Below are positions 44,709-63,150 of a stretch of DNA of 64,000 bases, piece after piece (the first letter of the stretch is position 1; every line of letters begins with the position of its first letter). This DNA comes from Telmatactis stephensoni (Eukaryota; Cnidaria; Anthozoa; Actiniaria; Isophelliidae): NCBI GenBank assembly GCA_029948255.1, contig JALIZF010001274.1:146229-210228 (forward strand), written 5' to 3'. The notes under the pieces were generated by a model. It did no database searches. It was not told where the DNA came from and saw only the letters and a program-made list of their open reading frames with translations. A program made the translations under genes and the position numbers.

Positions 44709-44799
44709 AGCAGCAGTAAGGGTTTATCTCGATCGCGCCTTGTGATTTACAGGGCCTGCCTGTATAGATCTAGGGGTGTCCACATCAGGGATTCTCTGC
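44709..44799 (+). repeat. Left terminal inverted repeat
   Basis: 91 bp starting AGCAGCAGTAAGGG and ending GGGATTCTCTGC. It matches the reverse complement of 63060-63150 with about 8 mismatches (about 91 percent). The outer ten bases are identical and three of the next four differ. Confidence 0.9.
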
Positions 44800-44873
44800 A
44801 TATTTCTAGGGTGTTTTTGGCCAAAGTGATTAAAAGACTGCTGCTGGAGAGTAAAAGAAATAAGTGTTATATA

Positions 44874-45464
44874 ATGTGTTGCAATGCCCCTCAAGTAGAT
44901 TACGAAAAGTATACAGTTTGCTCTAATTGCCTGCGACGTGAAATTAAGCCCCCAGAGCCGAGGCCTTTAAAGTGTTGTGGTAGGCGAATGACCATAGAAG
45001 AAGACACTTCGGCCGTGTGTGAAATCTGTGGCCGTATAGTTTTTAATGCGGTGCCCTGTGCTACCTTTGGTCAATGTTATGCTAACGGCGGTCGTAAAAA
45101 GACGCCATATAAGAGAATTATTTACTTTAGAAAGTGGATGCGAATTATTTTAGGTTTAGAGCCAGTCTATGTTGATAAGAAAACCTTACGGCAGATAAAA
45201 GCTCATCTCAAAGAACCCACGCCACAGGGTTTGAAAAAGACTCTAAAAAAATTAAAGCTACAAAAATATAATAATGGCATTTCTTATATTTTGTCAGAAA
45301 TAACCGGAGAAAAAATTCCCGACGTTTCTATGCAAATTATGCGTAGGGCCGAGAGTATGTTTATTCAGCTGCGGGGGGAAATCCCTTATTACCCTGACGT
45401 CATCTACAAAATATTTTATGACATCGACCCCAACCACCCCCTATTGAGATGGATTCCTGGTTGA
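44874..45464 (+). CDS. VLTF3-like viral late transcription factor
   Basis: 196 residues starting at an ATG embedded in TTATATAATG; the longer upstream frame only reads through the terminal repeat and lacks an ATG. The first about 70 residues hold cysteine pairs of a zinc ribbon (CSNC, CCG, CEICG). Then come YKRIIYFRKWM, TPQGLKKTLKKLKLQKY and a C-terminal YPDVIYKIFYDIDPNHPLL block. This order and spacing fit the VLTF3 family of nucleocytoviruses, which directs late gene transcription. It is the leftmost gene and is followed by a strong terminator-like hairpin. The identification is by motif pattern only; the core looks shorter than in giant viruses. Confidence 0.75.
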   Translation: MCCNAPQVDYEKYTVCSNCLRREIKPPEPRPLKCCGRRMTIEEDTSAVCEICGRIVFNAVPCATFGQCYANGGRKKTPYKRIIYFRKWMRIILGLEPVYVDKKTLRQIKAHLKEPTPQGLKKTLKKLKLQKYNNGISYILSEITGEKIPDVSMQIMRRAESMFIQLRGEIPYYPDVIYKIFYDIDPNHPLLRWIPG

Positions 45465-45523
45465 TGACTCATCGGGACTTCCCCTTTGAGAATAAAAAAG
45501 AGCAAAACTGGCTTTTTGGCCAG

Positions 45524-46051: not shown

Positions 46052-46657
46052 TTATTGATTTAGTTTTTGTTTTATTTCTTGCATGGCTTCGCTGTAGATT
46101 TTCTTGCGTAGTTCGGGATCGTCTTTTTTAAAAACTTCGACTCTAGTTTTTTGTCGGATTTCATTTTTTAATTGCTCGTATTTATTGGACTCGGCCATAA
46201 TTAAAGCAAATTCATTCTCATCAATTCTGTTATTATGTAGAGCTTTCGAAATGAGGTCTGAGATTGTATTTATTTTAGATTTGCATAACATTGTTGTTTT
46301 CTCGTGTTTCGAAACCTTTTGGGTTAATTTTTTAGTCGCTACCGTGGCGACGGCTGAAATAATTCCACAGAGTCCCCCAATCGCGCTTAAAGGGATTCCT
46401 ACTAGAATTCCTGGGCCCGTTAAAGATGTGGCAATCCCCGAAGTTGTTAAAAGGGCTGATAAACTACCGGAAGATAAAGCAATGGCATGGGTCACAGAGC
46501 GTGTTTTATTGTATTTTTTACGCACGCCGTCGTAATGTTTGACCTCGGCGCCTAATTCAGAAAGGATCATATTGATTTTTTGAAGTCGAAAACTTTCTCC
46601 ATCAGAAATGACAGGGTATAATGGGGCAGAGGGTTCTTCTCGTATCACATCGGTCAT
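46052..46657 (-). CDS. Candidate membrane protein with hydrophobic hairpin
   Basis: 201 residues. A charged N-terminus and predicted helix (about 25-50) lead into a long Gly/Ala/Ser/Leu/Ile-rich hydrophobic core (about 57-108: SGSLSALLTTSGIATSL, then ILVGIPLSAIGGLCGIISAV), which could be two membrane helices. A Lys/Glu-rich helical C-terminus follows. The start codon shares the palindrome CAT-TATATATA-ATG with the divergent gene at 46666. No family was recognised; a virion membrane protein or membrane-active protein is possible. Confidence 0.65.
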   Translation of the reverse strand: MTDVIREEPSAPLYPVISDGESFRLQKINMILSELGAEVKHYDGVRKKYNKTRSVTHAIALSSGSLSALLTTSGIATSLTGPGILVGIPLSAIGGLCGIISAVATVATKKLTQKVSKHEKTTMLCKSKINTISDLISKALHNNRIDENEFALIMAESNKYEQLKNEIRQKTRVEVFKKDDPELRKKIYSEAMQEIKQKLNQ

Positions 46658-46668
46658 TATATATAATG
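46655..46668. promoter_or_regulatory. Bidirectional initiator shared by two divergent genes
   Basis: CAT-TATATATA-ATG is a perfect 14-bp palindrome. Its outer triplets are the start codons of the minus gene (46657) and the plus gene (46666). Only 8 bp separate the two ATGs, so any leader would be extremely short or arise from inside the facing gene. Confidence 0.7.
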
Positions 46669-47937
46669 GTACAATACGAATGGCATAGGTTTAGAACCGC
46701 TTACCCACATGCTGATTTTAAAAAGTTCTCTGCCGGGCCTCAGAGTATTGAATTCGAACACGATGGAATTGCTGTCGATGTGTTTAGAGAAGATATTACG
46801 CCTGATGGACCTTTTCCAACGGCATTGCATCACTATGGCGACGCAAAATTAAATGCGGCGCTTTTAAAGGCCTTAGGTCCTAGAGATCCTAAAAACAAGA
46901 CCGTTAAGATATCTCCATCGTCGTGGCCTAAGGATTTTACAGTCGCTAGAATAAATTATGCAGTGCCCTCTGTGGCTTGGCATATTATGCCGTCTAAGAC
47001 TAATTTCTCCCATTTGACATTAGAAGTGGCGCCGGGTAAAAAGATACCTTTAAAGGTGCGTAACGTGTTTAAAAAGAGTGAGACAGAATTTAAATCTGCA
47101 GCGGCGGCAAAAAAATGGCTAAAAGGGCCAAGTATGACTTACTGGGCGCAACAGTTAAACTTTGCCGTATGGGCGGCGACGGCGGGCTGCGGTGTGGGTT
47201 TAGATATGCTACAGCGGTGTTCTTTTTTACAGTTTCATGTAATTTTTACTATTCGCCGCATTCTACATGAATTGGGAGCGCCTTTGCCGGGCGATCTTAG
47301 CTTTGATGCCTACGACACACATTATAAAGAGGCGGCCTTTGAGAGGCTATGTAATGAATTTAAAATCCACAAGGACTTTAGGTTCTTAGCGCCCAACAAT
47401 GGCGGCGTTGGCGATCCTTATGGCTACGATTACGCAGGGCTTAACATAGAAGAAGGCGGCTGGCCTAACCCTGAGAATAGATTTAGAGATGAAGGTAAGC
47501 CTAAATATGGCGGGCCTGAGATAGAAGTGTTAAAAGATTCTCGCACTCCTAGACAATACGATTGGTTTGTATTGCAAAAAGGTGAAGGTCTGGTAAATCT
47601 GGCCCGCCTAAATAGAAGCATAGAGGCCTACGTTTATTGTGTGCTGGGGGCGCAGGTAGATACACGCTCGCCCATCATAGCCGCTGGTGGTGCTAGTCAA
47701 GAAACACAACAACAGTTCTTAGTGCTCTTTGAATCGGCCGTCATAGAAAACGACATTGCCAAGAGCATACAAAGGTATCAGTTTGCCGTCCAAGAGGCTA
47801 AAGTGCGCTTAGACTACGCCATAGCCCCAGGTTGTTGGCTAATGCCGAGCGATTTAGTGATTAATACTCACTCTGTCGTGGGCTATAACAATCTTTTACA
47901 AAAGGCTACTGAGGTGATGAAAGTTTGGCATCAATGA
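46666..47937 (+). CDS. Conserved-looking viral protein of unknown function, 423 residues
   Basis: The start is taken at the ATG that ends TATATATAATG; the 15 upstream codons of the open frame lie inside the divergent gene. The protein is soluble, aromatic-rich and intact. Noted segments are WPKDFTVARINYAVPSVAWH (about 83-102), MTYWAQQLNFAVWAATAGCG (about 150-169), a Gly/Pro/Asn-rich middle (APNNGG, YGYDYAGLN, GGWPNPENRF) and a helical C-terminus. No catalytic motif was recognised. The size and its place near the capsid block suggest a virion component, but this is a guess. The C-terminal codons overlap the start region of the next small frame. Confidence 0.75.
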   Translation: MVQYEWHRFRTAYPHADFKKFSAGPQSIEFEHDGIAVDVFREDITPDGPFPTALHHYGDAKLNAALLKALGPRDPKNKTVKISPSSWPKDFTVARINYAVPSVAWHIMPSKTNFSHLTLEVAPGKKIPLKVRNVFKKSETEFKSAAAAKKWLKGPSMTYWAQQLNFAVWAATAGCGVGLDMLQRCSFLQFHVIFTIRRILHELGAPLPGDLSFDAYDTHYKEAAFERLCNEFKIHKDFRFLAPNNGGVGDPYGYDYAGLNIEEGGWPNPENRFRDEGKPKYGGPEIEVLKDSRTPRQYDWFVLQKGEGLVNLARLNRSIEAYVYCVLGAQVDTRSPIIAAGGASQETQQQFLVLFESAVIENDIAKSIQRYQFAVQEAKVRLDYAIAPGCWLMPSDLVINTHSVVGYNNLLQKATEVMKVWHQ

Positions 47938-47950
47938 CATCAACGGCGAT

Positions 47951-48151: not shown

Positions 48152-49597
48152 TTATATCTTTAACTTCTTTAAAAGTACGGCGCCTATAGCTACGACAAGA
48201 ATCCAAATATTGTTGCCGACAAACTTCAGCAATTCGCCGCCGGTCTTCAACACCAAAGATAAGACGCTGCCTAATAGACCTGGCACGGCGGCGGCCATTT
48301 TTTTACCTAGCGCGGTCAGGCCTTGACCTATTTTTTTAACACCGGCGCCGACACCTTTTAAAGAGGTTAATATGACTCCTATGACACTACTTATAGCCAC
48401 GGCAAAGGCCGCAGGAATGCCATATTTCAAAAGGGCTCGTTTTATTTTTTCTTTGGTGGTGAGGCCTAATTCTCGCTCGCGGTTTTCTACTTGGTGCTCT
48501 AATTCTTCTAAGCGCTCTTGGAGTTCTTGGGCCCGTCTTTCGGCGGCCTCGCGTTCTTCTTCGGTGCGGTTTTCATCGGCGGCTATTCGACGGAGTTCTT
48601 CTATCTGGCGCTCTAAGTCTTCTAAGGCCTGGCGGTCTTGTCTGTTTTGCTCTTCAAGGGTGCGCACTCTATGTTCTAACTCGGCCTTTTCTGTTTGCGC
48701 GGTCGCGAGTTCAGACTGAAGGGTGGCGGCGTCAGTTTTGGCCATCCCTAACTCTTGGGTGGTTTCGTCTAGCGCCGCGCGGGCCCTGTCTCTTTCTCGC
48801 AGGGCTTTGTTGGCCTCGGTGACAATGATATTTCTTTCTTCTAAAATAGAATTGTAGCGTTGTTCGGCATCTTCGAGGAAGTTTTCTGTCTCTAGGTTGT
48901 GGCGTTCTTCGTTGGCCGCCAAGGCTTTTTCGTATTCTTCCTGGACGCGGTCAAATCGGGATTGTAGATTAGACAGGGCCTGGGTTTTGACCGCAAGGGC
49001 TTGTTCGGCCTCGCCTAGTTGATCTTCTAGGTCGATGGCTCTCTTTTGTAATGCGATCTTTGCATTGTGCTCTTCCAATAGCTCTAAGAGGCCTCTCGAT
49101 GCCATTTTAAATCCCTTGAGCGCCTTTACCGTTTCTCTAACCTCGCCTTCTTTAGTGAAAAGGGGCTGTGGCTTAGTCCATTTGCCTTGCCTCTGTTCGT
49201 TGGGAAACGAGATGTAAACTTGGCCCTTCTGCTCAGTTAGTCTTACATAATCGAAGTTAAAGTGTTCGTATAATTCTAAGAGGCGTTTTTCGGCCAGTTC
49301 GACCGGAGTTTGAAGAGTTTCTTTTAGTGTTTCTTCATCGCGAAATTTGTTAAATTCTTCCATTTGAAGGTACTCAGGGATTGGCTCGTCGGGATGCAAA
49401 CGCTCGTAGTCATGTTCGAGGCCGCGGATATACTTGTATGCGTCATTGCCAAAACGACGAAGGGCATCTCTAAAGACGGCGAACCTGTTTCTTTTCCCTC
49501 TTTCTATCTGTAGATTTAATTCTTCTTCGTCTTCGTTATTGTCGTCTTGATCCCTGTGTGTGAGGGGGTCAAAATCAGGATCTATTTCGCCTTCCAT
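48152..49597 (-). CDS. Coiled-coil membrane protein, 481 residues
   Basis: An acidic N-terminus (about 1-30) and a globular part (about 35-165) precede a continuous coiled coil from about 170 to 375, rich in Glu, Gln, Arg and Leu (for example EEREAAERRAQELQERLEEL). Then come a hydrophobic helix (YGIPAAFAVAISSVIGVILT, about 392-411), a Gly/Ala/Lys-rich amphipathic stretch and a second membrane helix near the end (NNIWILVVAIGAVLLKKLKI). The layout suggests an elongated membrane-anchored virion or fusion-type structural protein; no family assignment. The start codon lies in the shared palindrome with the capsid gene. Confidence 0.75.
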   Translation of the reverse strand: MEGEIDPDFDPLTHRDQDDNNEDEEELNLQIERGKRNRFAVFRDALRRFGNDAYKYIRGLEHDYERLHPDEPIPEYLQMEEFNKFRDEETLKETLQTPVELAEKRLLELYEHFNFDYVRLTEQKGQVYISFPNEQRQGKWTKPQPLFTKEGEVRETVKALKGFKMASRGLLELLEEHNAKIALQKRAIDLEDQLGEAEQALAVKTQALSNLQSRFDRVQEEYEKALAANEERHNLETENFLEDAEQRYNSILEERNIIVTEANKALRERDRARAALDETTQELGMAKTDAATLQSELATAQTEKAELEHRVRTLEEQNRQDRQALEDLERQIEELRRIAADENRTEEEREAAERRAQELQERLEELEHQVENRERELGLTTKEKIKRALLKYGIPAAFAVAISSVIGVILTSLKGVGAGVKKIGQGLTALGKKMAAAVPGLLGSVLSLVLKTGGELLKFVGNNIWILVVAIGAVLLKKLKI

Positions 49598-49609
49598 ATA
49601 TATATAATG
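49595..49609. promoter_or_regulatory. Bidirectional initiator between coiled-coil and capsid genes
   Basis: CAT-ATATATATA-ATG. The two start codons face away from each other with 9 bp between them, the same design as at 46655-46668 and 55615-55625. Confidence 0.7.
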
Positions 49610-50863
49610 ATCAGCTCAAAGATAGATCCCAGTATTCTGCCCAAACAGACCGGCGGCTTAAAGGCCTGAAAGGACTTTTCACCGCGTTACTTTACGCCCT
49701 CTAGTGCAAACCCAGGGGAGACATTATACGTCAGCGTCCCCACGCTCTCGGAAAATCTTCTCTTAGTGCCTGGTACCCTGGCGCTGAGGTTTGATTTGGC
49801 CATACAACCATCAACGGCCGACAAACGCTATTGCGTCAATAACATCGGCCGCAACATAGTAAATCGCATGAAAGTTAAATTTGCCGGAGAATGCCTTTTA
49901 GACCTAAACCGCTATGACCTTTACCACACTTACAAAGATCTATTCATGTGGCCCAAAGAGAAAGATGTGCTGGTGGAGCAGGGCATTGGCGGCACAGATT
50001 TGAGAAAAATAAGAAGTAAAATTGTCACAGGCAGTGAGCCCTCTAACGCCGCAGATGAAAAAGCACTATTAGCCGCCTATGGAACAAAGTATGTGATTCC
50101 TTTAGATTTTGAGATCCTAAAGAACCATGGGGTGTTGTACATCTAGTCCTTAGGTAGTGAAATGCAGTTCGAAGTTACGCTCGCAGATACTACCAACATC
50201 CTACAGCAGGACACTGCAGAATCGGCTTTGTCTGGCGCTATTCATCCCTACAGCCTGACAAACCTAGAGCTGCAGTATGAGACAATTCACAGCGATGTCT
50301 TAGCCCGCAGTGCAGCAGCCGAATATTCTGCCGGCAAAGCATTTCTTTACGATCATGTGACCTTGCATAAAACTTTTAGCTTCAATGAGAAAAAAGATGA
50401 GTTGATTACCCAAACAGTTAATATCCCCAGGAGATCTCTGTCGGGACTGCTGTTGCTCTTCGTAAAGCCCTTTAGCGCTGGAAAGAGAGATTCTGAGGCA
50501 TTTGTAAATCCAGACATTACCGATGTAAAGGTTAATATCAATGGAGTTCCGAACAAGGTTTATTCACAGGGATTAAAGCCAACCGACATCTATAGAGATG
50601 TTGTAAGGCGGTTTGGTGATCACATAAGCCCCACACAGTTCTTCCATGGCAGTAAATATGCCCTATGGGTTGATCTAAGAACCACTGAAGACAATGATAT
50701 CCACGGCCAGGGCTTAAAACTGGTCAGCACACAAGACGGCGTCACTCTGGAGATAAAACGTACAAAGAATAGTACTGATAAGAGTATCAACTGTTACATC
50801 TTTGTCGTCAGCGATGCGCAAATGAATGTCGAAGGGAATCAATTACAGTCTATTGCCTATTAA
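49607..50863 (+). pseudogene. Candidate major capsid protein (double jelly-roll type), two in-frame stops
   Basis: One reading frame of 418 codons begins at the ATG of TATATATAATG (49607). It is interrupted by TGA at codon 21 (49667-49669) and TAG at codon 180 (50144-50146) without a change of frame. The composition is beta-rich with few Cys. The second half contains IPRRSLSGLLLLFVKP, FVNPDITDVKVNINGVPNKV and, near the end, a CYIFVVSDAQMN segment. I recognise this pattern as an abundant capsid-like protein of cnidarian polinton-like elements; the double jelly-roll fold is inferred, not shown. Position next to a virion-type membrane gene fits. This copy cannot make a full protein without readthrough. 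Confidence 0.6.
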
Positions 50864-50924: not shown

Positions 50925-51734
50925 ATGTTACGCGTTTTTGAAAACCCAAAACTAAATCTAAAACTCAATACCCTCAAAAAGGGAGATGAATTGTATTTTA
51001 AAGCAAAAGACGTTGCTAAGGCCTTAGGCTACAGTTGTGCAAAAAATGCTATAAGAGACCACGTATCTGAGGAGTACAAGAAATCCCTGTGTGATATAAG
51101 GGGGCATCGAAATAATGCCCCCTTGAATGAGCAGCCAAACACCGTCTATGTTACTGAGCCTGGCCTGTATGAGTTAATTTTTAGCAGTAAGCTGCCCAGC
51201 GCCGTAGAATTCAGAAAGTGGGTGTTTTCAGAGGTGTTGCCGCAGATACGCAAAACTGGCTGTTATGAGTTCAAAAAGGATATAAGGGCCATCACGTGCT
51301 TTAAGATCGAAAATGAGTTTGACTTACATAAAAAAGTAATAGATTACATCCGCCGCTTTCATAATCTTCTCATCGTCGCCGGCCTCGGAGAAAACCAAGA
51401 TACCCAGCAAAAGCGAATACAAAGTTGGCAAAAGGGCTATCAGAAGGGGCAGCCAGATCTTATAGTGCAAAATGCTCATAAAAATTATAACGGCTTCTGT
51501 ATAGAATTAAAGACGCCTAAGGGCACTGGAGAAGTCTCTGAAGCCCAAAAAGAAGCATTACGAAGATATGAACAGCAGGGTTATCTTACTTTGGTCAGCC
51601 ACGACTATGATGAAATAGTTGATGCCTTAAAAGAATACTGCAGCGGCCTAAGGGTTCCTTGCCCGCGCTGCCCACGGCGCTTTAAAAGCGAAGAAACCTT
51701 GGCGGTGCATATGAGAGTTATACATCGGCTTTAA
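50925..51734 (+). CDS. BRO-N / VRR-NUC / zinc-finger fusion protein
   Basis: 269 residues starting in TATACAATG. Residues about 1-118 form a BRO-N domain (YFKAKDVAKALGYSCAKNAI, then VTEPGLYELIFSSKLPSAVE and FRKWVFSEVLPQIR). Residues about 135-238 look like a VRR-NUC nuclease (KGQPDLIV, CIELKTP and SEAQKEALRRYEQQGY, supplying the D, ExK and Q of this PD-(D/E)XK family). The last about 25 residues are one C2H2 finger (CPRCPRRF...LAVHMRVIH). BRO-N domains bind DNA in large DNA viruses, and VRR-NUC enzymes cut branched DNA, so a role in resolving replication intermediates or in targeting host DNA is plausible. Confidence 0.8.
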   Translation: MLRVFENPKLNLKLNTLKKGDELYFKAKDVAKALGYSCAKNAIRDHVSEEYKKSLCDIRGHRNNAPLNEQPNTVYVTEPGLYELIFSSKLPSAVEFRKWVFSEVLPQIRKTGCYEFKKDIRAITCFKIENEFDLHKKVIDYIRRFHNLLIVAGLGENQDTQQKRIQSWQKGYQKGQPDLIVQNAHKNYNGFCIELKTPKGTGEVSEAQKEALRRYEQQGYLTLVSHDYDEIVDALKEYCSGLRVPCPRCPRRFKSEETLAVHMRVIHRL

Positions 51735-51758: not shown

Positions 51759-52076
51759 ATGATCAGCGTCTCAGAATTTAACAATGCCATCAAAGAAGCC
51801 GAAACCATGACAAAATGGCGCGATTTAGAAGTCGGGCGCATTTATAAGATTGTGGACTATGATGTCTATGAGTTACATGCGGCCGAGACGATGAAGCTGA
51901 CCCTTGAAGATGGCGATAATAAGCTTTACACTATGTGGGCGCCGCAGCGGGTAAAAGAGACTTTAGAGGGCAAAGAATATACTCATATACGGAGTAATGG
52001 GCTTAAAAAAGGCCGCAATAATAGCCATTGGAGCTTTAATGCGGTCAAAATAGAAAAGAAAGATATGTTCTCTTAG
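51759..52076 (+). CDS. Hypothetical 105-residue protein, possible OB-type fold
   Basis: Starts in GATATAATG. It is beta-rich with alternating hydrophobic positions in LEVGRIYKIVDYDVYEL and LEDGDNKLYTMWAPQRVKE, ending WSFNAVKIEKKDMFS. The pattern resembles a small single-stranded DNA-binding OB domain, but no signature residues prove it. It lies between the nuclease gene and the zinc-finger genes, in the replication/regulation block. Confidence 0.6.
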   Translation: MISVSEFNNAIKEAETMTKWRDLEVGRIYKIVDYDVYELHAAETMKLTLEDGDNKLYTMWAPQRVKETLEGKEYTHIRSNGLKKGRNNSHWSFNAVKIEKKDMFS

Positions 52077-52342: not shown

Positions 52343-52882
52343 ATGCAAAGCTGTCCAAACTGCCCAAGAACTTTCTATGATATTGATCGTCTTTATTACC
52401 ATGTCGAAAATATGGTGTGCCTTAAAAATAGGCCCACATGCGGCGATTGTAATAAGACTTTCACCGCCCTTGAGAGTCTAAACTATCATCTCCAAAAAAG
52501 AGTCTGTCACAAAGAAAAACCAAATAAGACATGCGGCGTCTGTCATTGGACCTTTTATTCGGTCAAAAATCTTAAAGATCACATAGAAAAAAACGTATGT
52601 CTTAGAGAACGGCCCAATACCACATGCGACACTTGTAATCATACGTTTTCTACGCCCCAACGGCTTAAATATCATATCGAAAAAAAGGTATGTCTTAAAG
52701 AAAACTTGACATGCGGCGCTTGTAATAAGACCTTCGCTACGCCGCAAAGGCTTAAATATCATACCAAGGCAAAAATCTGTCTTAAAGAGCGGCCAAATAC
52801 AACATGCGGCTCTTGTAATCATACTTTCTCATCCGCCTGGCGGCTTGAATATCATAAACAAATAAAAGGATGCGGGCGCTGA
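52343..52882 (+). CDS. Protein of six tandem C2HC zinc fingers
   Basis: 179 residues, starting in TTATATAATG. Six modules repeat about every 28 residues, each with the form Cx2C-(aromatic)-x-L-x2-H-x4-6-C, for example CPNCPRTFYDIDRLYYHVEN and CDTCNHTFSTPQRLKYHIEK. The fourth ligand is Cys instead of the usual His in all six. The protein consists of little else, so DNA or RNA binding is the likely role, perhaps in viral or host gene control. Modules 4 and 5 are most alike, pointing to internal duplication. Confidence 0.8.
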   Translation: MQSCPNCPRTFYDIDRLYYHVENMVCLKNRPTCGDCNKTFTALESLNYHLQKRVCHKEKPNKTCGVCHWTFYSVKNLKDHIEKNVCLRERPNTTCDTCNHTFSTPQRLKYHIEKKVCLKENLTCGACNKTFATPQRLKYHTKAKICLKERPNTTCGSCNHTFSSAWRLEYHKQIKGCGR

Positions 52883-53009
52883 AATCCATTTGAAAAGTAA
52901 AATAGGCGCCCGACGCCGTTGACACGGGAAGACCTTATAAAAATCACATAGAGAGAGATGTAATTTTTTTTTCTATGGCGATGGGACGCCGCCATCATCT
53001 TAGAATATG

Positions 53010-53279
53010 AAAAAAGTTCTATTTCGCTTTAACAACGGTTTGTTTTTTTGTATACTTTTACGAAAAAAAGTTCTATTTCGCTTTAACAACGGTTTGTTTT
53101 TTTGTATACTTTTACGAAAAAAAGTTCTATTTCGCTTTAACAACGGTTTGTTTTTTTGTATACTTTTACGAAAAAAAGTTTATAATGGATTTAACAACGG
53201 TTTGTTTTTTTGTATACTTTTACGAAAAAAAGTTTATAATGGATTTAACAACTGTATCTTTTTTTGTAGACTTATTTAT
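53010..53279. repeat. 54-bp direct repeat array, five units, upstream of the finger gene
   Basis: Units start at about 53016, 53070, 53124, 53178 and 53232. The first three contain GTTCTATTTCGCTTTAACAA and the last two GTTTATAATGGATTTAACAA. All continue with GGTTTGTTTTTTTGTATACT or a near variant. The two variant units carry TATAATGG, close to the gene-start motif. An open frame crosses the array only because the unit is 18 codons long. Confidence 0.9.
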
Positions 53280-53287
53280 ATCTATAT

Positions 53288-53968: not shown

Positions 53969-53994
53969 ATGTTAAAAAATACTACGGCGGGCTT

Positions 53995-54160
53995 AATAAG
54001 TATACAAAAATACATACTGTTGTTAAAGCGAAATAGAAGTTTTTTTAGAATAAGTATACAAAAATACATACTGTTGTTAAAGCGCCCTAGAAGTTTTTTT
54101 TTAGAATAAGTATACAAAAATACATACTGTTGTTAAAGCGCCCTAGAAGTTTTTTTTTCG
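53995..54160. repeat. 54-56-bp repeat array, three units, inverted relative to the upstream array
   Basis: Units start AATAAGTATACAAAAATACA at 53995, 54049 and 54105 and contain GTTGTTAAAGCG. This is the reverse complement of the CGCTTTAACAAC core of the array at 53010-53279. The finger gene is thus enclosed by inverted arrays. Confidence 0.9.
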
Positions 54161-54945: not shown

Positions 54946-54952
54946 TATATTT

Positions 54953-55405
54953 TTATAGCGAAAGAACCGTCAGAGTGCTAATGGTCATGTGATTATAAGG
55001 CCTATCTCTCTTGTCGGCAATTCCATTGACGCGAAGTTTGCCCGAGTCATCGGCCCGCACTTGAAGCTGGACTTTTTTCTTCACTTCGGCCACCGTATGA
55101 AACGTGACGACGCTTAAATTCTCTGTAGAGTTGATCGGCGGTTCAAATGAAAAATGGGCCGGCTCTCGTTTATTCGTCTTAGCGCGCATAGGTAGAAAGG
55201 GTTTCCCGTCGTGATCCACAAATTGAAATCCCGCATTCACATGGCTCTCGGTACTAATACAAATACTACAAAGAATCAATTTTCGGCCGGGATAATTCAC
55301 ATCCACGCTCAATCCGGCCACATTTTGCCAAGACCCCAGATTATAATCTGCTTCGGTATCTAAAGCCGCATAAACACAATCTGCTCCTGGGCCGTAAGGG
55401 TTCAT
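54953..55405 (-). CDS. Beta-rich candidate minor virion protein, paralogue 2
   Basis: 150 residues; ATG in TAGTATATATG, six bases after the stop of the upstream minus-strand gene. It aligns over most of its length with the 54349-54945 product but lacks that protein's Pro/Lys-rich tail. The plus-strand gene at 58486-58839 has a similar beginning (NPY..., W-x-(D/N)-(I/V)) and size and may be a distant third member. Confidence 0.6.
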   Translation of the reverse strand: MNPYGPGADCVYAALDTEADYNLGSWQNVAGLSVDVNYPGRKLILCSICISTESHVNAGFQFVDHDGKPFLPMRAKTNKREPAHFSFEPPINSTENLSVVTFHTVAEVKKKVQLQVRADDSGKLRVNGIADKRDRPYNHMTISTLTVLSL

Positions 55406-55410: not shown

Positions 55411-55617
55411 CTACATCGGAAGCCTCATAAAGTCGACGACGGCTTCTTTACCCCACATAGCTAAGGTCACTAAGGCCGAGAACCTTTCGGCCGTTTTATT
55501 GGCCGCCAACTCTTCTTTGAGCCGCTTTACTTCTTCTTGCAGATCCAACACCTGCTCTTCTAGACTTCTTTTTTCTCGTATAAATTCAGCAGCCCTTTGT
55601 ATTTGCTCCACACTCAT
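55411..55617 (-). CDS. Small coiled-coil protein
   Basis: 68 residues. A strong coiled coil (REKRSLEEQVLDLQEEVKRL, about 14-40) is followed by a hydrophobic helical end. The start codon lies in the palindrome shared with the ATPase gene. It is the first of four minus-strand genes spaced by 3 to 7 bases. Function unknown; perhaps an oligomerising virion or scaffold protein. Confidence 0.6.
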   Translation of the reverse strand: MSVEQIQRAAEFIREKRSLEEQVLDLQEEVKRLKEELAANKTAERFSALVTLAMWGKEAVVDFMRLPM

Positions 55618-55625
55618 ATATAATG
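55615..55625. promoter_or_regulatory. Bidirectional initiator between coiled-coil and ATPase genes
   Basis: CAT-ATATA-ATG: two divergent start codons with only 5 bp between them. This is the third and tightest example of the shared initiator in the element. Confidence 0.7.
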
Positions 55626-56228
55626 AATGCAGAACATATTCCTTGTAATGCTCTTATCGTAGGACCCACAGGTTGCGGTAAGACTCAGTTTGTCGTAGAA
55701 CAACTTTTAGGTCCTTTTAGATACAAGTTTGACTACATTGTACTCCTTTGTCCTACTTATGTAAATAACAAAACTTGGAGCGGTATAGGCATAAAAGACG
55801 ATGACTTCTTTGTAGGATATCCTAGACCCCAATGAAATTGTCTAACCACTTGAAGTTCTGGCAATAAAGCATTTCCACACGACACACAAACCCTACTTAT
55901 TCTTGATGACATTGCTTGTGGGTGACGACGTTAAGAAAACGCACGTCGTAGTTAATTAAATCTAGCATTTAGCGGCAGACACGACAACATCTCTGTTTGG
56001 TTACTCTCGCAGCAGTTAACAAGTGTTAGTAAGTCCTTCAGGGAAAACATCGGTGCTCTAGTGGTATTTTACACTCCTAGTAAGAGCGACTTGGAGACCA
56101 TTCTTTCAGACTATGGTGGAGAAATAACTAAAGAAGAACTCCATAAATTTATGCGGCATTTAAAAACACATCAACATTCTAAGATGATCTTCTCTTTGAG
56201 GTATCCTTATAATGTTTCTATAGTTTAA
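55623..56228 (+). pseudogene. A32/FtsK-type DNA packaging ATPase, degenerate
   Basis: Residues 14-21 are the Walker A loop GPTGCGKT, then KFDYIVLLCPTY. Further on are an acidic Walker B-like LILDD and the family-typical AFSGRH...VWLLSQQLTSVSKSFREN, which together fit the A32-like packaging ATPases of polintons, adintoviruses and nucleocytoviruses. Codons run from 55623 to the TAA at 56226-56228. However, stops occur from 55833 onward, and the segment 55835-55960 also changes frame at least twice. The gene cannot yield an active enzyme. Its normal length would be about 200-250 residues. Confidence 0.75.
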
Positions 56229-56232: not shown

Positions 56233-56628
56233 ATGGAGATTGAGCAGCTCATCGATGAAATTCCCACGCAGCTGGATGAAAATGACTTCAAAGAACAACT
56301 CAACATCCTAGTGTTCTCTGGGAAGTGCTAGGAGATGATTGGCAAAGAGCTTACCCACGAGCAAGTTAATAAGTTATCCGAAGCGGAAGTCAAGAAGTTC
56401 CACAAAAGATACGAGGCTGCTCTTGCAAGAAAGACTACGGATGCCGTAGCCGACTCACCCATTAAGCTAGCCACTAAGATGCTGGGACTTGCACTACCCA
56501 TTGACGACGTAGAGCAACTTCAAAAGGACATAAGAGAAGACTATATCATTGCCCAAGAACTTAAAATCACCTGTGGGTGGTTGTCTTTGAAGTGCGGTAA
56601 GTTAATGTGCGTTAGCATCTCTAGGTGA
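56233..56628 (+). pseudogene. Helical hypothetical protein with in-frame stop
   Basis: Starts at the ATG of AAATATATG, four bases after the ATPase stop. After 32 codons a TAG (56329-56331) interrupts the frame. It reopens immediately as MIGKELTHEQVNKLSEAEVK and continues to 56628 with heptad-like helical sequence. The next ATG frame (56628-56759) overlaps its stop codon. Unknown function; it follows the packaging ATPase. Confidence 0.5.
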
Positions 56629-56850: not shown

Positions 56851-57177
56851 ATGAGTGACACCGAGCAGAAAGAAGATACTACTACCCCCGCCGCGGCCGA
56901 ACAAAAGATCACCAAGCCAAAGGCACCCGGCCGAGTAGCGGCGGGGAAAAAGCTGGCCGAGCTGAATAAAAAGAATAAAGCCAAAAAAGACCCTTCTTCG
57001 GAATCTAGTGACGGCTGGGATATCAATCCGGGCTACGTCATCGGCGGCCTTGGCCTTTTAGTGGCCATGGGCAGCTTATACCTACAGTGGAAATCACAGA
57101 AGCCCGCCGTGCATCTTGAGCCCGTAATACACCAGCCTAAAGAAAAAAAGCGCTCTAAGATCCCTGAGATGGAATAA
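56851..57177 (+). CDS. Small membrane protein with charged arms
   Basis: 108 residues; ATG in TTAATATATG. A Glu/Lys/Ala/Pro-rich, Ser-containing N-terminal half is followed by one transmembrane segment (GYVIGGLGLLVAMGSLYLQW, about 69-88) and a basic tail. Short single-span proteins in a row at this position are typical of virion membrane or capsid-associated genes. No family recognised. Confidence 0.6.
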   Translation: MSDTEQKEDTTTPAAAEQKITKPKAPGRVAAGKKLAELNKKNKAKKDPSSESSDGWDINPGYVIGGLGLLVAMGSLYLQWKSQKPAVHLEPVIHQPKEKKRSKIPEME

Positions 57178-57197
57178 AAATCTGTGATTTAGTTCAA

Positions 57198-57214
57198 AAA
57201 TCTTCGATTTTTTA
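57198..57214 (+). terminator. Short hairpin before the next gene
   Basis: AAAAATC-TTC-GATTTTT forms a 7-bp stem with T-run. A similar one, AAAAATCAGATGATTTTT, lies at 57440-57457, directly after the next stop codon. Both precede TTAATATA start motifs, so they may separate the transcripts of these small genes. Confidence 0.4.
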
Positions 57215-57221
57215 ATATAGC

Positions 57222-57440
57222 ATGTCCAATAAAATAATGAAAACCGTTGAAGAAGCCGCCGTCCTCACCTCCATTGTCGCCGCCGTTGGCTGGGTCGGCA
57301 AAAAGGCCCTAAAAGAAACCTTCACTGGCGATCCCAGCAGCAGCATAATGAACTACGTTAAGATGACCGCCGCCGTCGCCGGCAGTATCGCTGTGAGAGA
57401 TTACCTGATCAAAGAAAAATACATACCCAATAGTATCTAA
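57222..57440 (+). CDS. Small protein with hydrophobic segments, 72 residues
   Basis: ATG preceded by TTAATATAGC, a variant of the element's start motif. It contains AAVLTSIVAAVGWVGKKAL (about 9-27) and MTAAVAGSIAVRDYL (about 48-62). Two amphipathic or membrane helices are likely. The next small protein shares the VIAGSIAAAL theme, hinting at a common origin. Confidence 0.55.
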   Translation: MSNKIMKTVEEAAVLTSIVAAVGWVGKKALKETFTGDPSSSIMNYVKMTAAVAGSIAVRDYLIKEKYIPNSI

Positions 57441-57464
57441 AAATCAGATGATTTTTAATATATA

Positions 57465-57566
57465 ATGGTTAGTGTCATCGCCGGAAGCATCGCCGCAGCC
57501 TTAGCCTTTACAGGCGCCAACTACGGCGGCCGCTATTTAGACCAACTGATTACACGGCGACAGTAA
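57465..57566 (+). CDS. Mini membrane protein, 33 residues
   Basis: Starts exactly at the ATG of AATATATAATG and ends in TAA. The sequence begins MVSVIAGSIAAALAFTGANY and ends with an arginine pair, a single hydrophobic helix with a basic end. It is too short for ordinary gene finding. The perfect start motif, the preceding hairpin and the position in a row of small membrane genes support it. Confidence 0.5.
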   Translation: MVSVIAGSIAAALAFTGANYGGRYLDQLITRRQ

Positions 57567-57568
57567 AA

Positions 57569-57892
57569 ATGAATTAGCCGCCGAAAGAAAACGCCACTGA
57601 TCTGGCCATGGAAGCCTATGAAAATGCCCTCGCCGCCTATAATAAAAAAAGACAAGCCTACCGCGACTGGTTAGATGAAAATTACCGCGATAAAATGCAG
57701 GCCGATAAGAATTTCCAAAACACCGATTACGCCTTTAAGCTCTACGCACAGACGCATCCTCACTTTGCTCTGAAAAAGCCACCGCAGTTTAAAGATTATT
57801 ACACACCTTCTAAAAGGCAAAAAAATAATGAATTAATGTTTCTAGGCATTTCAGGCCTGGCCATCGGAGGCGCCGTGGCCTATTATATATGA
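57569..57892 (+). pseudogene. Tail-anchored small protein, possibly interrupted at codon 3
   Basis: A 94-residue frame from the ATG at 57608 is rich in Tyr, Lys and Ala (YNKKRQAYRDWLDENYRDKM) and ends in one membrane segment (LMFLGISGLAIGGAVAYYI). Thirteen codons upstream, in the same frame, lies another ATG (57569), followed by AAT and then TAG (57575-57577). If that ATG was the original start, this copy has an early stop. If 57608 is used, the gene is intact. Neither ATG has the TATATA motif. The last codons hold the start motif of the next gene. Confidence 0.5.
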
Positions 57893-58486
57893 TCGTCTTT
57901 TTGAACAGCGACCAGAATCCGTTTACAACTTATTTAAACCCGCCGATCAGAGCCCACAAGATCCGACTTGTGAGTTGCTCTTTGTACAATTCTTGGCATA
58001 ATTTGATAGCCGGCGTTGTAACAAAAAGCGGAACGCAGCACCTCATTCCTAATTCGCATTACACGCCGCAGACGCTGGCCAAAGAAGTTGCGCAAACGCG
58101 ATGTCGCTTTAACAACAGGGCTGCCCCACGAATGGAGCCTTACACACGACAAAAGCACCACACTGAATCAGCGCATTAAAGACCTGATCGGTTATAAAAA
58201 GGTGACGCTGGCCGGTCAAAATATCGACACATTTCATTAGAATGTCCCTTCTAATTATGAAATCCATTGTGACTTAGTTTATACATATGAAAATGGCAGT
58301 CGTTCGAATGTGATGGCTAAATTCCCGCCCAAAGGAAATCCGTTTGACCTGGTAGAATATCGCCCCATTTCTTTGGACTATGATATTTGCGACTTGGTGA
58401 CAGAAGTAAATATCACCGTCAAAGTCGATGGAAAGGTTGTCGATTTTAACAGACGCCAAATTAGTCTTGTCTTGGAATTTATATAA
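57889..58486 (+). pseudogene. Candidate minor capsid/penton-like protein, frameshifted
   Basis: Starts in TATTATATATG, overlapping the previous stop. The N-terminus (MIVFLNSDQNPFTTYLNPPI, then LVSCSLYNSWHNL) resembles a class of about 200-residue proteins found in cnidarian polinton-like elements. The first frame ends at 58179. A second frame, entered somewhere between 58080 and 58125, continues through KVTLAGQNIDTFH, meets TAG at 58238-58240 and reaches the TAA at 58484-58486. So there is one frameshift and one stop. Assignment to penton or minor capsid is a guess from layout. Confidence 0.45.
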
Positions 58487-58839
58487 TGAACCCCTATCTG
58501 ATTCCGGCAACTCAATTAATAGTTAAACAAAACCCCACAGATGGAGGCAAATATAATAGCCCGCTTTGGACGGACATCAAAAATCTAAAAATAAACGCCG
58601 CGGGTTTTAAAAGCGGCATTCTTTTTTGTAACCTAAACCTCGATTTAAAAGGACAAGCCAGCATTCGAATAACAGGCGAAAGCACTGTCGGAACAATCCC
58701 TATTTACCCAATAAAACAAACAGGTATGTTCTCCGCCCAACTCCCCATCCTGGATCCGCAAACTATTCGAGTCCAAATCGCAGTGGCCAGTGGAGAGGTT
58801 TCTGTTTTTACGTCGAACTTGATGGCCTTGTTTTTATAA
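58486..58839 (+). CDS. Small beta-rich candidate virion protein
   Basis: 117 residues. The ATG overlaps the previous stop codon (TATATAATG, TAA sharing one base). Beta-rich: NPYLIPATQLIVKQN, PLWTDIKNLKINAAGFKSG, and a hydrophobic end. It is similar in start and length to the proteins at 54349 and 54953 and may be a distant member of that group. No catalytic features. Confidence 0.55.
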   Translation: MNPYLIPATQLIVKQNPTDGGKYNSPLWTDIKNLKINAAGFKSGILFCNLNLDLKGQASIRITGESTVGTIPIYPIKQTGMFSAQLPILDPQTIRVQIAVASGEVSVFTSNLMALFL

Positions 58840-58844
58840 ATATA

Positions 58845-59815
58845 ATGCCCCGCGTCGAAGACAAACTTAAGAGGATTTATTATGGGCCCGAAGGCTATTG
58901 GCGAGGAGCCTCGGCTATTAAGAAACTTGCTGTAGCGGCTAGAGTCTCTGAAGACACAGCGAAGAACTGGTTAAAAAAACAAACCCTTTGGCAGGTTTAT
59001 CTTCCCGCGCCCAAGTATATTCCCAGACCCAGTTTCACTGTGAATGTGCCCAACGAAGTTCATCAGGCAGATTTACTTTTTTTGCCGCACGATAAGGTAA
59101 AGAGAAAAACTTACAAATATGCCTTGACTGTCGTGGATATCGCCAGCAGATACAAGGACGCTGAGCCCATAACCAGTAAGGATTCAGGAGAAGTCGCGGA
59201 AGCGCTAAGTAAGATTTATAAGCGCGTTTTAAAATGGCCAAAGCTGCTGCAGGTTGATGCGGGCACAGAGTTCATGGGCGTCGTCACTAAAACGCTAAAA
59301 GACCATGATACTAAGATCAGGAGAGCTGAAGCAGAGTACCACCGGGGTCAAAGCCTCGTTGAAAGATTTAATCGCACCCTAGCGGAACGGTTGTTTGGAT
59401 ATCAGTATTGGAAAGAACTAGCAGATCCATCCAAAAGCAACAGGGAGTGGGTGCAGAGACTTCCAGAGGTCATTAAGGCTTTAAATAATGAGGAAACAAG
59501 GGCAACGGGAATGAAACCTAAGGATGCCATAAAAAGAAACACGTCGAACACAAATCCTACGTTAGGAGTTCAAGAGCAGTAGGAATGAAAGAAAAAAAAT
59601 TAGGTGACGTCACGGTTCGATATCTCTATCAGCCTGGGGAATTGGAAGGAGGATCCAAAAGAGCTACGGATCCGAATTGGTCTTTGAAAACTTACCAGAT
59701 TCAAAGTCGTATAGCTAAAGAAGGACAACCCAGTGTTAGTATTATCTACCAGATGGTCCCAAGCCGTGGATTTGTTAAAGAAGAGCTGCTCATCGTTCCT
59801 AAAGATTCAGAGTAG
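58845..59815 (+). pseudogene. DDE integrase (retrovirus/polinton type), one frameshift
   Basis: Starts in AATATAATG. An N-terminal helix-turn-helix-like part (about 20-50) precedes the rve catalytic core: D76 in HQADLLF, D138 in LQVDAGTEF and E173 in SLVERFNRTLAERLF. The spacing D-x61-D-x34-E is the canonical D,D(35)E arrangement. The first frame ends at the TAG of 59580-59582. The C-terminal domain (VRYLYQPGELEGG..., SRGFVKEELLIVP) continues in another frame to 59815, so a frameshift lies just before 59580. The total of about 320 codons is normal for this class. It would catalyse insertion of the element ends. It converges on the polymerase gene with a 9-bp overlap. Confidence 0.85.
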
Positions 59816-62800
59816 TGCTGCACCACGCGCCTGATTACACTCTAAGCACGTCAAACGTATATTACCTACAGAGTGACCTTTCTTATTATTTAAACGGTCC
59901 ACAGAAAATTGCTGATCGTCGTTTGGTTCAAAATCCCAGAGTAGCGGTATGTTACACTTAGCACACCTTGCGTTGGGTTTATAAACATCGGCGACGCAAA
60001 GGTCAAACTCTAATTTTTTGTGCTCATCGTGCCACTTATAACGCAATAGCTTCTTGTTAATATTCTGCTTAGCTATTTCCTCGGGCGTATTATCGTACCG
60101 CATTGCCGGCCCCCATGCCCTTTTCAACTGTGCCGCATATTCAACCCGACTGACGGCCGTATAGATCAGATTGCTCCAACAGAGCCGCTGATCAATAATC
60201 CACAGATTTTCTTTTATAGTCAATCCCTGCGCGCTGTGGACGGTCATACAATAACCCAGCCGCCAATCTGGATGTTTCATAATTTTATCCACCAACGCCA
60301 GCGGCACCCACGCTATATCGTGTTTGACGGCATTTTCTAAGATCACCTGCGTATAAGGCACCGTAATTGATTTTTTTTGTCTTGTATCGCGTGGCCTATA
60401 AGACACCGGCACCAAATGCGAAGTAAACTTTTCCCGATGCCGCCTTAACAGATCTTTTTCAATTCTCGCCTGCACCGCCCTTTTACTACTAAGCACCAAA
60501 TCCGTCGGCCGCCACTCCTGCAAAAACACCTCATAATCCCGCGCCTTCATATTTTTCCTCATACATTTACACTGCTCAACATCGGTTAAACCTCTCAATG
60601 CCCTTTTAAACTTCTTTATCTTCTCATCTTTACTTCTATAATCGGCTTTTATTTCTTCATGGTAAAACTCCTTTAACCACTCATGCGGCATTTCTCCCGC
60701 AATAGGCGGCGGCTGACACGGATCGCCCGCAAATATCACCTGCGTTTTCCCCTTTAAGAACTCTACAAACTCCTTCAGCATCGGCAGCGGCACCGTACAA
60801 ATCTCGTCCCAAAGAATAACCGGCGGTATCTCTTTTATCGCCTCAGGAACCCATTTCTCTCCATTATATCTGAAAAAGCTATGATAAGTCTGTGCATCAT
60901 ACCCCTGTGCCACCAATTCCCTTTCCAACCGATGCGTCGGCGTCAGCACTTTCACTTTCGGAAACAGCCTTAACACTCTCGTCGTCTTCCCGCTTCCGCC
61001 GGCCCCATAAAGATACGAAACCCTTTTATAGCTTATCGGATCTTTAACACTAGGCCATATTTTCTCTGTCACTTCTCTATTGCCCTCTCTATGCGCCCCA
61101 TGGTATTTTACCCTTTCCCGCCACGTCCTCATCTCTTCATTTTTAATCCGCCATTGCCCGCTCTCAGCCATCTCATCTTTGACATAATACATTTTCATCT
61201 TCTCTAAAACTTCCGGTCGAATATACAAACTATCCGTTGCTACCCTGGGTATATCATCCTTATCAAACCTTAACAGCATCGTTAAAAGGTTAATATGAGC
61301 ATAAGACAGCATCGACGCCCTTAAATGATAATACTGCGCCCTATAATCGTGGTAATAACACAACACTTTGCCCTCACTAAAATCCTCTACCCGCACCATA
61401 GTATTTTCTTCATGCGCCTTTTTTATTAGAAAGTTCAATTCTTCATCATCCGTTACCAGCCGCCGTTGCATATGTTTTTCTCCCGCTCTGGCCCCTTGAG
61501 TAAACTTGCCAATAACAATCCTTGCCGCGTGGTTGTCTTCAGGCAGCCACTGCGTCTTATCACCATGGCAAAGAATCGCCTCATGCGCCGTGTACTCTAA
61601 AAGACCATTTTCTTCAAAGAACTTTAACAACGGCACCGGTAACCAACCTTTTTCTTCAATATGCTTACCATACCACGCGTAAATAATAGGATGTAGATCT
61701 TCTTTAAACTTCCACGTCGTTAACTTTACAAACCCATTCGCCGGCGCCTCATAACGCCCATCCAGAGCCACTCTAAAGAACTGAGAATCCGGATGTCCAA
61801 AGCGCTGATAAAACGGCTTACAATCCCCGAGGCCCTTAAAGCTGGCCGGATAACAATGTTTCATGTCCAGCGACACATAATCTTCTTTTTTATACTCCAT
61901 ATTCCACAGTCCGCCGTGTCCATGCTCTACGCACGCCAGCGCAATCTCCGGCAACTCTTTCGGCGTCGGCTTCCAATGATTTCTTTTTCTGGCCGCTACA
62001 AAATCCAAAGAACTACTACAAAAGACTTCTTCTCTAAAATCCTCGCCCAAAACTTCACAGGCCTTCTTTATTCTTTCATCTTCTACCTGCGGCCGATAAA
62101 GCGTCCCATCTTGCGTAATAAACTGTGTTCCCTCCGCATCTAACAGCCAAATAGAATTCTCTTTAATAAAATCACTGCCGTCACAAAGAATATTGCCGTC
62201 GATATCAAATTCTGTCCATAGTGGATTTACTTCTTTATAGACCTCAACTTTCTTTTTCCTTGGAAATCTCACATCTCGCCACGCATGACCATTATGCTGA
62301 TAAATCTTGATCGCCGGTCCGGCTCCGTTATATTTTGTAGTGCCGGGATAGATAAATCCGCCCATAATGTCTAACACAGCTATTTTTCTTTTTATGGCCA
62401 CTTCTAATTTCATAATCGCCTCTATAGTCCCGCCCGACCTTTTTGTATTCCATTCCCACTGTCGTATCGCCTTTCTACGCGCGTCAGTCAAACATCCGCC
62501 GCCCTTTGTCGAATCCGTGAAATACTCTCTAATAAGTTTGGCAACACAGTTACCTGGATGCCTCATCGGCTGTAGCTTTTTTACGTCTGGCTCTTTTAAT
62601 TTATAACCCTCGTAAATCACAACAGTAACCGGATAAGCTTCGTCGTAATACAAAGAATCAATGCCCACTAAAGCACCGGGCCTGGTATCTTTATTTAAAA
62701 TGAATATATCTTTTCTGTTACTGGCTCTAATGGGGTTTCTTCCTTTTTCAATCACCCACCGATTGCCATCGTGTTTTATAAATGCCAACTGAAGACGAAA

Positions 62801-63007
62801 ATCCCCGTCGGGCAGTTTATCTATAATTTCCTCCGCGCGCGCCTCGGTCATCGAAGCATCTGTATCTTTCTCTATAAACGTTGTAAAAACAATATTTGCA
62901 TCTGTGTCATCAATGACACTTTTTCTGAGCCGCGCTATTTCTCTGGAGGCAATGGGAGGCAAAGAGCCATCTAAGTCAGTTTTTAATAACCAGTCGATCA
63001 CGTCCAT
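59807..63007 (-). CDS. Family B-like DNA polymerase - SF1 helicase - HNH fusion protein
   Basis: 1066 residues, uninterrupted; ATG in TTTATATATATG. Residues about 370-600 carry polymerase B-type palm motifs: SLDMKHCYPASF (motif A, about 379-390), HLRASMLSYAHINLL (motif B region, about 561-575) and VATDSLYI (motif C, about 589-596). No exonuclease motifs were evident in the N-terminal 350. Residues about 660-960 are an SF1 helicase: Walker A GAGGSGKT (668-675), ILWDEI (731-736), FAGDPCQPPP (759-768), TVHSAQGLTI (922-931) and IYTAVSRV (948-955). The C-terminus (1015-1062) has Cx2C, VDRLNNKKGH, N and Cx2CN, an HNH-like zinc module. It is the probable replication protein of the element. Polintons normally carry a separate, longer protein-primed polymerase. 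Confidence 0.75.
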   Translation of the reverse strand: MDVIDWLLKTDLDGSLPPIASREIARLRKSVIDDTDANIVFTTFIEKDTDASMTEARAEEIIDKLPDGDFRLQLAFIKHDGNRWVIEKGRNPIRASNRKDIFILNKDTRPGALVGIDSLYYDEAYPVTVVIYEGYKLKEPDVKKLQPMRHPGNCVAKLIREYFTDSTKGGGCLTDARRKAIRQWEWNTKRSGGTIEAIMKLEVAIKRKIAVLDIMGGFIYPGTTKYNGAGPAIKIYQHNGHAWRDVRFPRKKKVEVYKEVNPLWTEFDIDGNILCDGSDFIKENSIWLLDAEGTQFITQDGTLYRPQVEDERIKKACEVLGEDFREEVFCSSSLDFVAARKRNHWKPTPKELPEIALACVEHGHGGLWNMEYKKEDYVSLDMKHCYPASFKGLGDCKPFYQRFGHPDSQFFRVALDGRYEAPANGFVKLTTWKFKEDLHPIIYAWYGKHIEEKGWLPVPLLKFFEENGLLEYTAHEAILCHGDKTQWLPEDNHAARIVIGKFTQGARAGEKHMQRRLVTDDEELNFLIKKAHEENTMVRVEDFSEGKVLCYYHDYRAQYYHLRASMLSYAHINLLTMLLRFDKDDIPRVATDSLYIRPEVLEKMKMYYVKDEMAESGQWRIKNEEMRTWRERVKYHGAHREGNREVTEKIWPSVKDPISYKRVSYLYGAGGSGKTTRVLRLFPKVKVLTPTHRLERELVAQGYDAQTYHSFFRYNGEKWVPEAIKEIPPVILWDEICTVPLPMLKEFVEFLKGKTQVIFAGDPCQPPPIAGEMPHEWLKEFYHEEIKADYRSKDEKIKKFKRALRGLTDVEQCKCMRKNMKARDYEVFLQEWRPTDLVLSSKRAVQARIEKDLLRRHREKFTSHLVPVSYRPRDTRQKKSITVPYTQVILENAVKHDIAWVPLALVDKIMKHPDWRLGYCMTVHSAQGLTIKENLWIIDQRLCWSNLIYTAVSRVEYAAQLKRAWGPAMRYDNTPEEIAKQNINKKLLRYKWHDEHKKLEFDLCVADVYKPNARCAKCNIPLLWDFEPNDDQQFSVDRLNNKKGHSVGNIRLTCLECNQARGAALL

Positions 63008-63059
63008 ATATATAAAGAATTATTTTAATCTCAAATCGCAGTTTTTTTGCCAAAATGGC

Positions 63060-63150
63060 GCAGAGAATCCCCGATGTGGACACCCCTCGATCTATGCAGG
63101 CAGGCCCTGTAAATCACAGGGTGCGATCGAGATAAAACTATACTGCTGCT
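63060..63150 (-). repeat. Right terminal inverted repeat
   Basis: Reverse complement starts AGCAGCAGTATAG and ends GGGATTCTCTGC. It pairs with 44709-44799. The polymerase start codon lies only 53 bp inside it. Confidence 0.9.

Follow-up and report, generated by a model that had tools for sequence, protein, structure and literature searches.

Polinton-like viruses (PLVs) include members in which a protein-primed DNA polymerase B (pPolB) is fused to a Tlr1-like helicase (pPolB-S1H), some of them with a C-terminal HNH domain (PMC11071308). The late transcription factors VLTF2 and VLTF3 have been stated to be undetectable outside Nucleocytoviricota, and VLTF3 has been taken to be a diagnostic giant-virus gene (PMC11253617). 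VLTF3 has also been reported in adintovirus-like elements of about 30 kb in Amoebidium (PMC11244446), and as a lone gene, surrounded by host genes and grouped with Asfarviridae, in the cnidarian Exaiptasia (PMC5294986). Cnidarian capsid genes have been noted outside the main Maverick-Polinton cluster (PMC10120064). Here we describe an 18.4-kb virus-like element at positions 44709-63150 of a 64-kb stretch of Telmatactis stephensoni DNA (contig JALIZF010001274.1, positions 146,229 to 210,228; hereafter the window, whose numbering is used throughout, with strands given as + or -). It is very probably an endogenous, partly decayed PLV of the Tlr1-helicase type, residing in an animal chromosome. 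As a whole, the locus is best explained, with a probability of roughly 0.7, as a Tlr1-type PLV that also carries a late-transcription module of giant-virus type.

A sequence-only reading of the window had proposed an integrated PLV encoding VLTF3, and this is borne out by the terminal inverted repeats (TIRs), an rve integrase, a fusion replicase and a match to PF04947. The same reading treated VLTF3 as a nucleocytovirus hallmark, a view that agrees with PMC11253617 and is at odds with the reports from Amoebidium (PMC11244446) and Exaiptasia (PMC5294986).

Boundaries and genomic setting

The element is bounded by TIRs of 91 nt at 44709-44799 (+) and 63060-63150 (-), the arms of which are 91% complementary. 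Gene calls, broken ones included, cover about 86% of it, and its GC content in 2-kb windows is 0.37-0.48, against 0.25-0.44 to its left. The left flank is animal-type DNA containing a gene for a TPR protein and three genes for rhodopsin-family receptors (12352-13362, 19904-20884 and 30239-31171), each a single open reading frame (ORF).

The TPR-protein gene (IFIT-like by eye) and the DNA downstream of it are duplicated in inverted orientation, 35943-38956 (-) being 90-92% identical to 42000-44709 (+). The 36-kb paralogue lacks the insertion; it shows the left flank in an unoccupied state, and its similarity to that flank ends at 44709. A degenerate tRNA-like sequence (44637-44709, +) ends at this junction, matching Rfam RF00005 over its full length with 17.7 bits (E=0.29; gathering score 29), a sub-threshold match where ARAGORN found no tRNA. 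It also occurs in the unoccupied paralogue, the one that ends at 35943. That its 3' end is the left end of the element may be a sign of target choice, in this single case.

To the right, units of 179 and 188 bp form a tandem array that begins at 63151, the first base past the TIR, and continues to the window end at 64000. Because of this array, the right flank and the empty paralogue are not collinear, and a target-site duplication is not readable. A second copy of the element was not detected elsewhere in the 64-kb window. Further features of the left flank are a long tandem repeat, read as a series of repetitive ORFs (15956-19343), and a simple-repeat stretch (9432-9914).

Replicase and integrase

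The largest gene (59807-63007, -) is intact and encodes a 1066-residue fusion, recognised by profile and fold searches, in which a pPolB palm is joined to a C-terminal SF1 helicase, as in Tlr1-type PLVs, followed by an HNH domain. The first aspartate of polymerase motif C is replaced, the motif reading VATDS in 31 of the 32 members of polymerase alignment A2. The C-terminus matches PHROG 1035 (HNH) at residues 995-1064 (E=3e-9), and Pfam HNH was detected at E<=0.1 in 6/32 alignment members (best 0.023). Ahead of the palm, C154 and H238 are invariant in A2 and may be candidates for the catalytic Cys and His of a putative vOTU protease domain; by simple pattern, NCVA occurs in 24/32 members and HNGHAW in 28/32. 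Schlafens carry a domain of the SF1-helicase type. They appear when the replicase model is compared in VIA, where the best 50 rows comprise SF1-helicase-bearing proteins (RecD, Pif1, Dda, UvrD, TraI, Helitron transposase, schlafens, a herpesvirus helicase and others) and two phi29 rows. No stand-alone pPolB was recognised, the helicase fusion being the sole ORF in the element longer than 481 residues.

The neighbouring gene (58845-59582, +) encodes an rve/DDE integrase (PF00665, E=1.1e-7; transpos_IS481, E=2.3e-16, below cut-off). Since the replicase is the Tlr1-type fusion and is accompanied by an rve integrase, the element is assigned to the Tlr1-type PLVs rather than the classical polintons. 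The polymerase-helicase-HNH fusion had been thought unusual in the sequence-only reading; it is instead the pPolB-S1H already described in PLVs (PMC11071308).

A scan of prokaryote genomes with the polymerase alignment returned 8 loci. One, L001 (364-2769 of the 3,152-bp contig JAADDH010000070.1 in an archaeal metagenome-assembled genome), holds a relative of the fusion polymerase in decayed form and is probably contamination. Matches at the remaining seven cover just 43-82 residues at the helicase end, and these loci were set aside. Scans of IMG/VR with VLTF3 (single sequence and alignment), the capsid and polymerase alignments, the integrase and a 423-residue protein described below gave pattern matches and no confirmed relative.

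The VLTF3 gene

Just inside the left TIR lies an intact ORF (44874-45464, +) encoding a VLTF3-like late transcription factor. Profile searching gives PF04947 at E=4.2e-10 and 40 bits, against a curated cut-off of 25, and the matching region follows cysteines of zinc-binding type. Of its 17 relatives (54-83% identity), 13 carry the same precomputed domain, and the cysteines are conserved in alignment A1. Judged by these sequence criteria, the protein is a real member of the family. The alignment matched no solved structure by sequence up to E=1. One relative, P0002, opens with MDAIDWLL, the same eight residues as the polymerase relatives P0018-P0020. The simplest reading would be that, in that relative, the terminal repeats extend into the first and the last gene, which would put VLTF3 and the polymerase at opposite ends of one element there too.

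Capsid and packaging genes

The major capsid gene (49607-50863, +), identified from its relatives, alignment A3 and the fold of a relative, is broken, with a shift of frame soon after its beginning and a single in-frame stop. The fold modelled for P0064, an intact relative with 82% identity to the second capsid piece of the window, is a double jelly-roll; the capsid-like gene of the sequence-only reading is upheld in this way. The P0064 model scores best against Nucleocytoviricota capsids, with giant viruses above virophages, and an adintovirus protein stands at rank 14 in the viral fold search. The full-length close relatives P0064-P0067, P0069 and P0070 share their start methionine with the capsid gene of the window. 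By sequence, the capsid alignment matched only two ribosomal-protein rows among solved structures, at E of about 0.5. An RNA_pol_Rpb1_3 match in 3/22 members of the alignment (Pfam, best E=0.0065) was taken as chance. One capsid relative, P0095, is filed as Bartonella sp. CL32QHWL-2 and is probably contamination from its host or sample. An A32-type packaging ATPase gene (55623-56228, +) is broken by frame changes, with PF04665 matching on two pieces.

A TATA element at the start codons

Most genes of the element begin directly behind a TATA. This motif lies within the last six bases before the ATG plus its A at 18/21 gene starts, compared with 21/567 other ATGs of the element and 52/1525 ATGs of the 44.6-kb left flank, a background of 3-4%. 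The starts at 56335, 57608 and 59585 lack it. Twenty of the starts were chosen by eye from the 53 ORFs of the ORF table, leaving out antisense and repeat ORFs; for VLTF3 the TTG of the table was replaced by the first in-frame ATG past the TIR (44874), and 47951, a TTG start, was dropped. Starts at 46666, 49607, 56233 and 57465 also carry the TATA, but were spotted through it; they stand outside the 21 and are counted among the 567 background ATGs.

The arrangement is most compact in three divergent gene pairs, which comprise the genes for the 423-residue protein, the capsid and the ATPase with their partners. In each, the entire spacer of 5-9 bp between the start codons is a TATA palindrome: TATATATA (8 bp, 46658-46665) between the genes for the 201- and 423-residue proteins, ATATATATA (9 bp, 49598-49606) between those for the 481-residue protein and the capsid, and ATATA (5 bp, 55618-55622) between those for the 68-residue protein and the ATPase. 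Pairs of the form CAT-N(2-12)-ATG with TATA in the spacer number 7/57 in the element and 1/164 in the flank. The TATA box of RNA polymerase II is placed some 25-30 bp ahead of the start site (PMC5294985), so these spacers leave no room for one outside the coding sequence of the neighbouring gene. The TATA element precedes the polymerase and integrase genes as well as the capsid genes, and so a simple division into early and late genes is not visible.

VLTF3 proteins include B385R of African swine fever virus (ASFV) and A2 of vaccinia virus. For ASFV B175L and B385R, possible roles like those proposed for vaccinia A1 and A2 have been suggested (PMC7163114). Late promoters of ASFV need TATATA at -1 to +5, and those of poxviruses have TAAAT at the start site (PMC5294985). 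An ASFV transcriptome study found its own late motif, placed 4-12 bp away from the start site, upstream of only 17/55 late genes (PMC7163114).

Proposed life cycle

We propose that replication of the linear genome would fall to the protein-primed fusion enzyme, its insertion to the integrase and its packaging to the ATPase. Transcripts would start in or beside the TATATA element and be nearly leaderless, with VLTF3 directing RNA polymerase to that element, a recruitment that we infer. It is the start-site promoters of ASFV and poxviruses, and the grouping of the Exaiptasia VLTF3 with Asfarviridae, that suggest VLTF3 acting with a TATATA initiator and a borrowed polymerase. A Pfam scan of 23 distinct element sequences recognised no RNA polymerase gene, and the enzyme would accordingly be supplied by the host or by a giant virus infecting alongside; in the latter case the element would be a virophage-like dependent of a cytoplasmic virus.

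More tentatively, and with rather less than even confidence, the element may stand for a whole lineage of animal viruses that integrate and are smaller than 20 kb. Its members would combine polinton-like replication and integration with a morphogenesis and late-transcription module of giant-virus type (capsid, VLTF3 and TATATA initiator), express divergent gene pairs from leaderless bidirectional promoters of 5-9 bp, and borrow RNA polymerase either from the host or from an animal giant virus acting as helper. The sequence-only label of an under-described lineage is a fair one, and its suggestion of an intermediate is possible. VLTF3 together with a matching cis-element in a small integrating element would suggest a portable late-transcription switch, and would bear on the question of an origin of giant viruses from polinton-like ancestors, as against gene exchange between the two. 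If the model holds, either host RNA polymerase would be used in an unusual way or the host would have a giant virus yet to be discovered.

Alternative explanations

The element could be a Tlr1-type PLV in which the TATA motifs serve as ordinary AT-rich signals, for translation or for the host's RNA polymerase II, while VLTF3 is otherwise employed, for instance as a DNA-binding regulator. The absence of a recognised RNA polymerase gene would fit, as would the fact that the longest ORF apart from the replicase has 481 codons; we nevertheless consider this account somewhat unlikely, as the TATA touches the start codon instead of standing 25-30 bp off (PMC5294985) and three divergent pairs are only 5-9 bp apart. 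A different possibility is that a very small relative of Nucleocytoviricota, resembling the mriyaviruses, gained an integrase and a PLV replicase. VLTF3, a capsid fold that scores best against Nucleocytoviricota and a TATATA initiator as in ASFV would all be expected of such a virus. With 18 kb between the TIRs, compared with 35-45 kb for mriyaviruses (PMC11253617), and with neither a RuvC-like resolvase nor VLTF2 matched in the Pfam-scanned sequences, no search dedicated to these two having been made, this origin is quite unlikely.

Capture of VLTF3 by a classical polinton or adintovirus would account for the rve integrase, the TIRs and the A32 ATPase, and draws further support from VLTF3 in the adintovirus-like elements of Amoebidium (PMC11244446) and from the adintovirus protein at rank 14. 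Against it stand the pPolB-SF1 helicase fusion in place of a stand-alone pPolB, a capsid model that scores giant viruses above virophages, and the lack of any Ulp1 protease match at E<=1 in 20 Pfam-scanned sequences, though divergent proteases could escape such a scan; we regard it as very unlikely. Of the two affinities in the sequence-only reading, the polinton-like one stands, the polymerase being of the PLV fusion type, and the adintovirus-like one is the weaker half, the capsid model being best against Nucleocytoviricota. A fragment of an integrated giant virus, to which the joint presence of VLTF3, an A32 ATPase and a giant-virus-like capsid might point, is given almost no weight: the left flank holds host genes, and the matching TIRs at both ends, the element's own integrase and its PLV-type replicase led us to reject it.

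Several points weigh against a Tlr1-type PLV with a VLTF3-TATATA module. The class assignment comes from gene content and from profile and fold scores, and the rve score of the integrase is 0.1 bit under the Pfam cut-off. No target-site duplication was found at the element ends. The TATA rule was spotted and tested on the same single element, with 21 hand-picked starts, and in L001, the decayed locus that is the sole relative compared at the DNA level, the TATA near the polymerase start ends 3 nt before an ATG, one base outside the window used, and so is no hit by the rule. An initiator at the transcription start, as in asfarvirus and poxvirus late promoters, may be suggested by start-codon context, and we give the link between VLTF3 and TATATA an even chance. 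Finally, the relatives of VLTF3 (17) are fewer and closer than those of the capsid (37) and polymerase (45), so the VLTF3 module may mark one branch only.

Remaining genes

To the right of VLTF3, a 201-residue membrane protein (46052-46657, -; hydropathy 2.26) is encoded divergently from the 423-residue protein (46666-47937, +; 46621 in the ORF table), which matches no PHROG at E<=0.1 and, at E<=0.01, no family of Pfam or of NCBIfam. The 481-residue protein (48152-49597, -) has a long charged middle and a C-terminal hydrophobic segment (hydropathy 2.40); it matches a PHROG tape-measure family (E=7e-9), which coiled-coil composition may explain. Beyond the capsid gene, a fusion protein (50925-51734, +) combines Bro-N (PF02498, E=1e-28), VRR-NUC (PF08774, E=4.5e-5, 0.1 bit above cut-off) and a C2H2 finger (zf-C2H2, E=1.3e-4, below cut-off). 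It is followed by a 105-residue protein without assigned function (51759-52076, +) and two C2H2 zinc-finger proteins (52343-52882, +, zf-C2H2_4 E=1e-17 over five stretches; 53288-53968, +, zf-C2H2_4 E=2.5e-10). The second zinc-finger gene is set between repeats (52999-54110), consisting of head-to-tail units, which are read in the 53007-53351 ORF, and an inverted copy.

Proteins of 198 (54349-54945, -) and 150 residues (54953-55405, -) are paralogues (blastp, 37% over 153 residues, E=5e-31). The smaller has no Pfam family; a minor capsid or penton-like role for it is a guess, and Pfam and NCBIfam scans gave no family match for the minor capsid or penton candidates at 54349-55405 and 57889-58839. 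The 68-residue protein (55411-55617, -) precedes the ATPase gene, which is followed by a small gene (56233-56628, +) that perhaps has an in-frame stop or starts at 56335. Four small ORFs of 108, 72, 33 and 94 residues (56851-57892, +) each encode a hydrophobic segment (1.57-1.87). The last are an unassigned gene, perhaps broken by frame changes as judged by eye from the frames alone (57889-58486, +), and one for a 117-residue protein (58486-58839, +).

Comparison with known systems

In the literature searched, outside which most subscription papers fall, we found no animal PLV with VLTF3, this gene set or the TATA-ATG architecture. Tlr1 of Tetrahymena itself has TIRs. Tlr1 and the Tlr1-helicase PLVs resemble the present element in being integrated and in having an rve integrase, a pPolB palm-SF1 helicase with a C-terminal endonuclease and a double jelly-roll capsid (PMC11071308, PMC12721341). 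They differ in that the C-terminus of Tlr1 is GIY-YIG where HNH is found here, and in the animal host, VLTF3 and TATA-ATG element of our locus. OmPLV, from the dinoflagellate Oxyrrhis marina, shares the fusion of Bro-N and VRR-NUC, the A32 ATPase, TIRs and an affinity to giant viruses and mriyaviruses (PMC12721341). Its helicase precedes the polymerase and it has a tyrosine recombinase, whereas here the polymerase comes first, the integrase is rve and the Bro-N protein has an extra C2H2 finger; VLTF3, present here, goes unmentioned in the main text of that paper.

Mriyaviruses are likewise small and have VLTF3, an ATPase and a giant-virus-like capsid, but their genomes of 35-45 kb encode VLTF2, RuvC and an HUH endonuclease, none of which was recognised here (PMC11253617). 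The Amoebidium elements share integration, terminal repeats, capsid genes and VLTF3; theirs are about 30 kb, with an adintovirus-type DNA polymerase B, a Dam methyltransferase and an ichthyosporean host (PMC11244446). In Exaiptasia VLTF3 again lies in a cnidarian genome, but isolated among host genes (PMC5294986). The Tlr1-type PLV chassis and the presence of VLTF3 in small integrated elements, as described for Amoebidium, are thus already known. New here are the TATA directly before the ATG at most gene starts and the TATA-palindrome spacers of the three divergent pairs.

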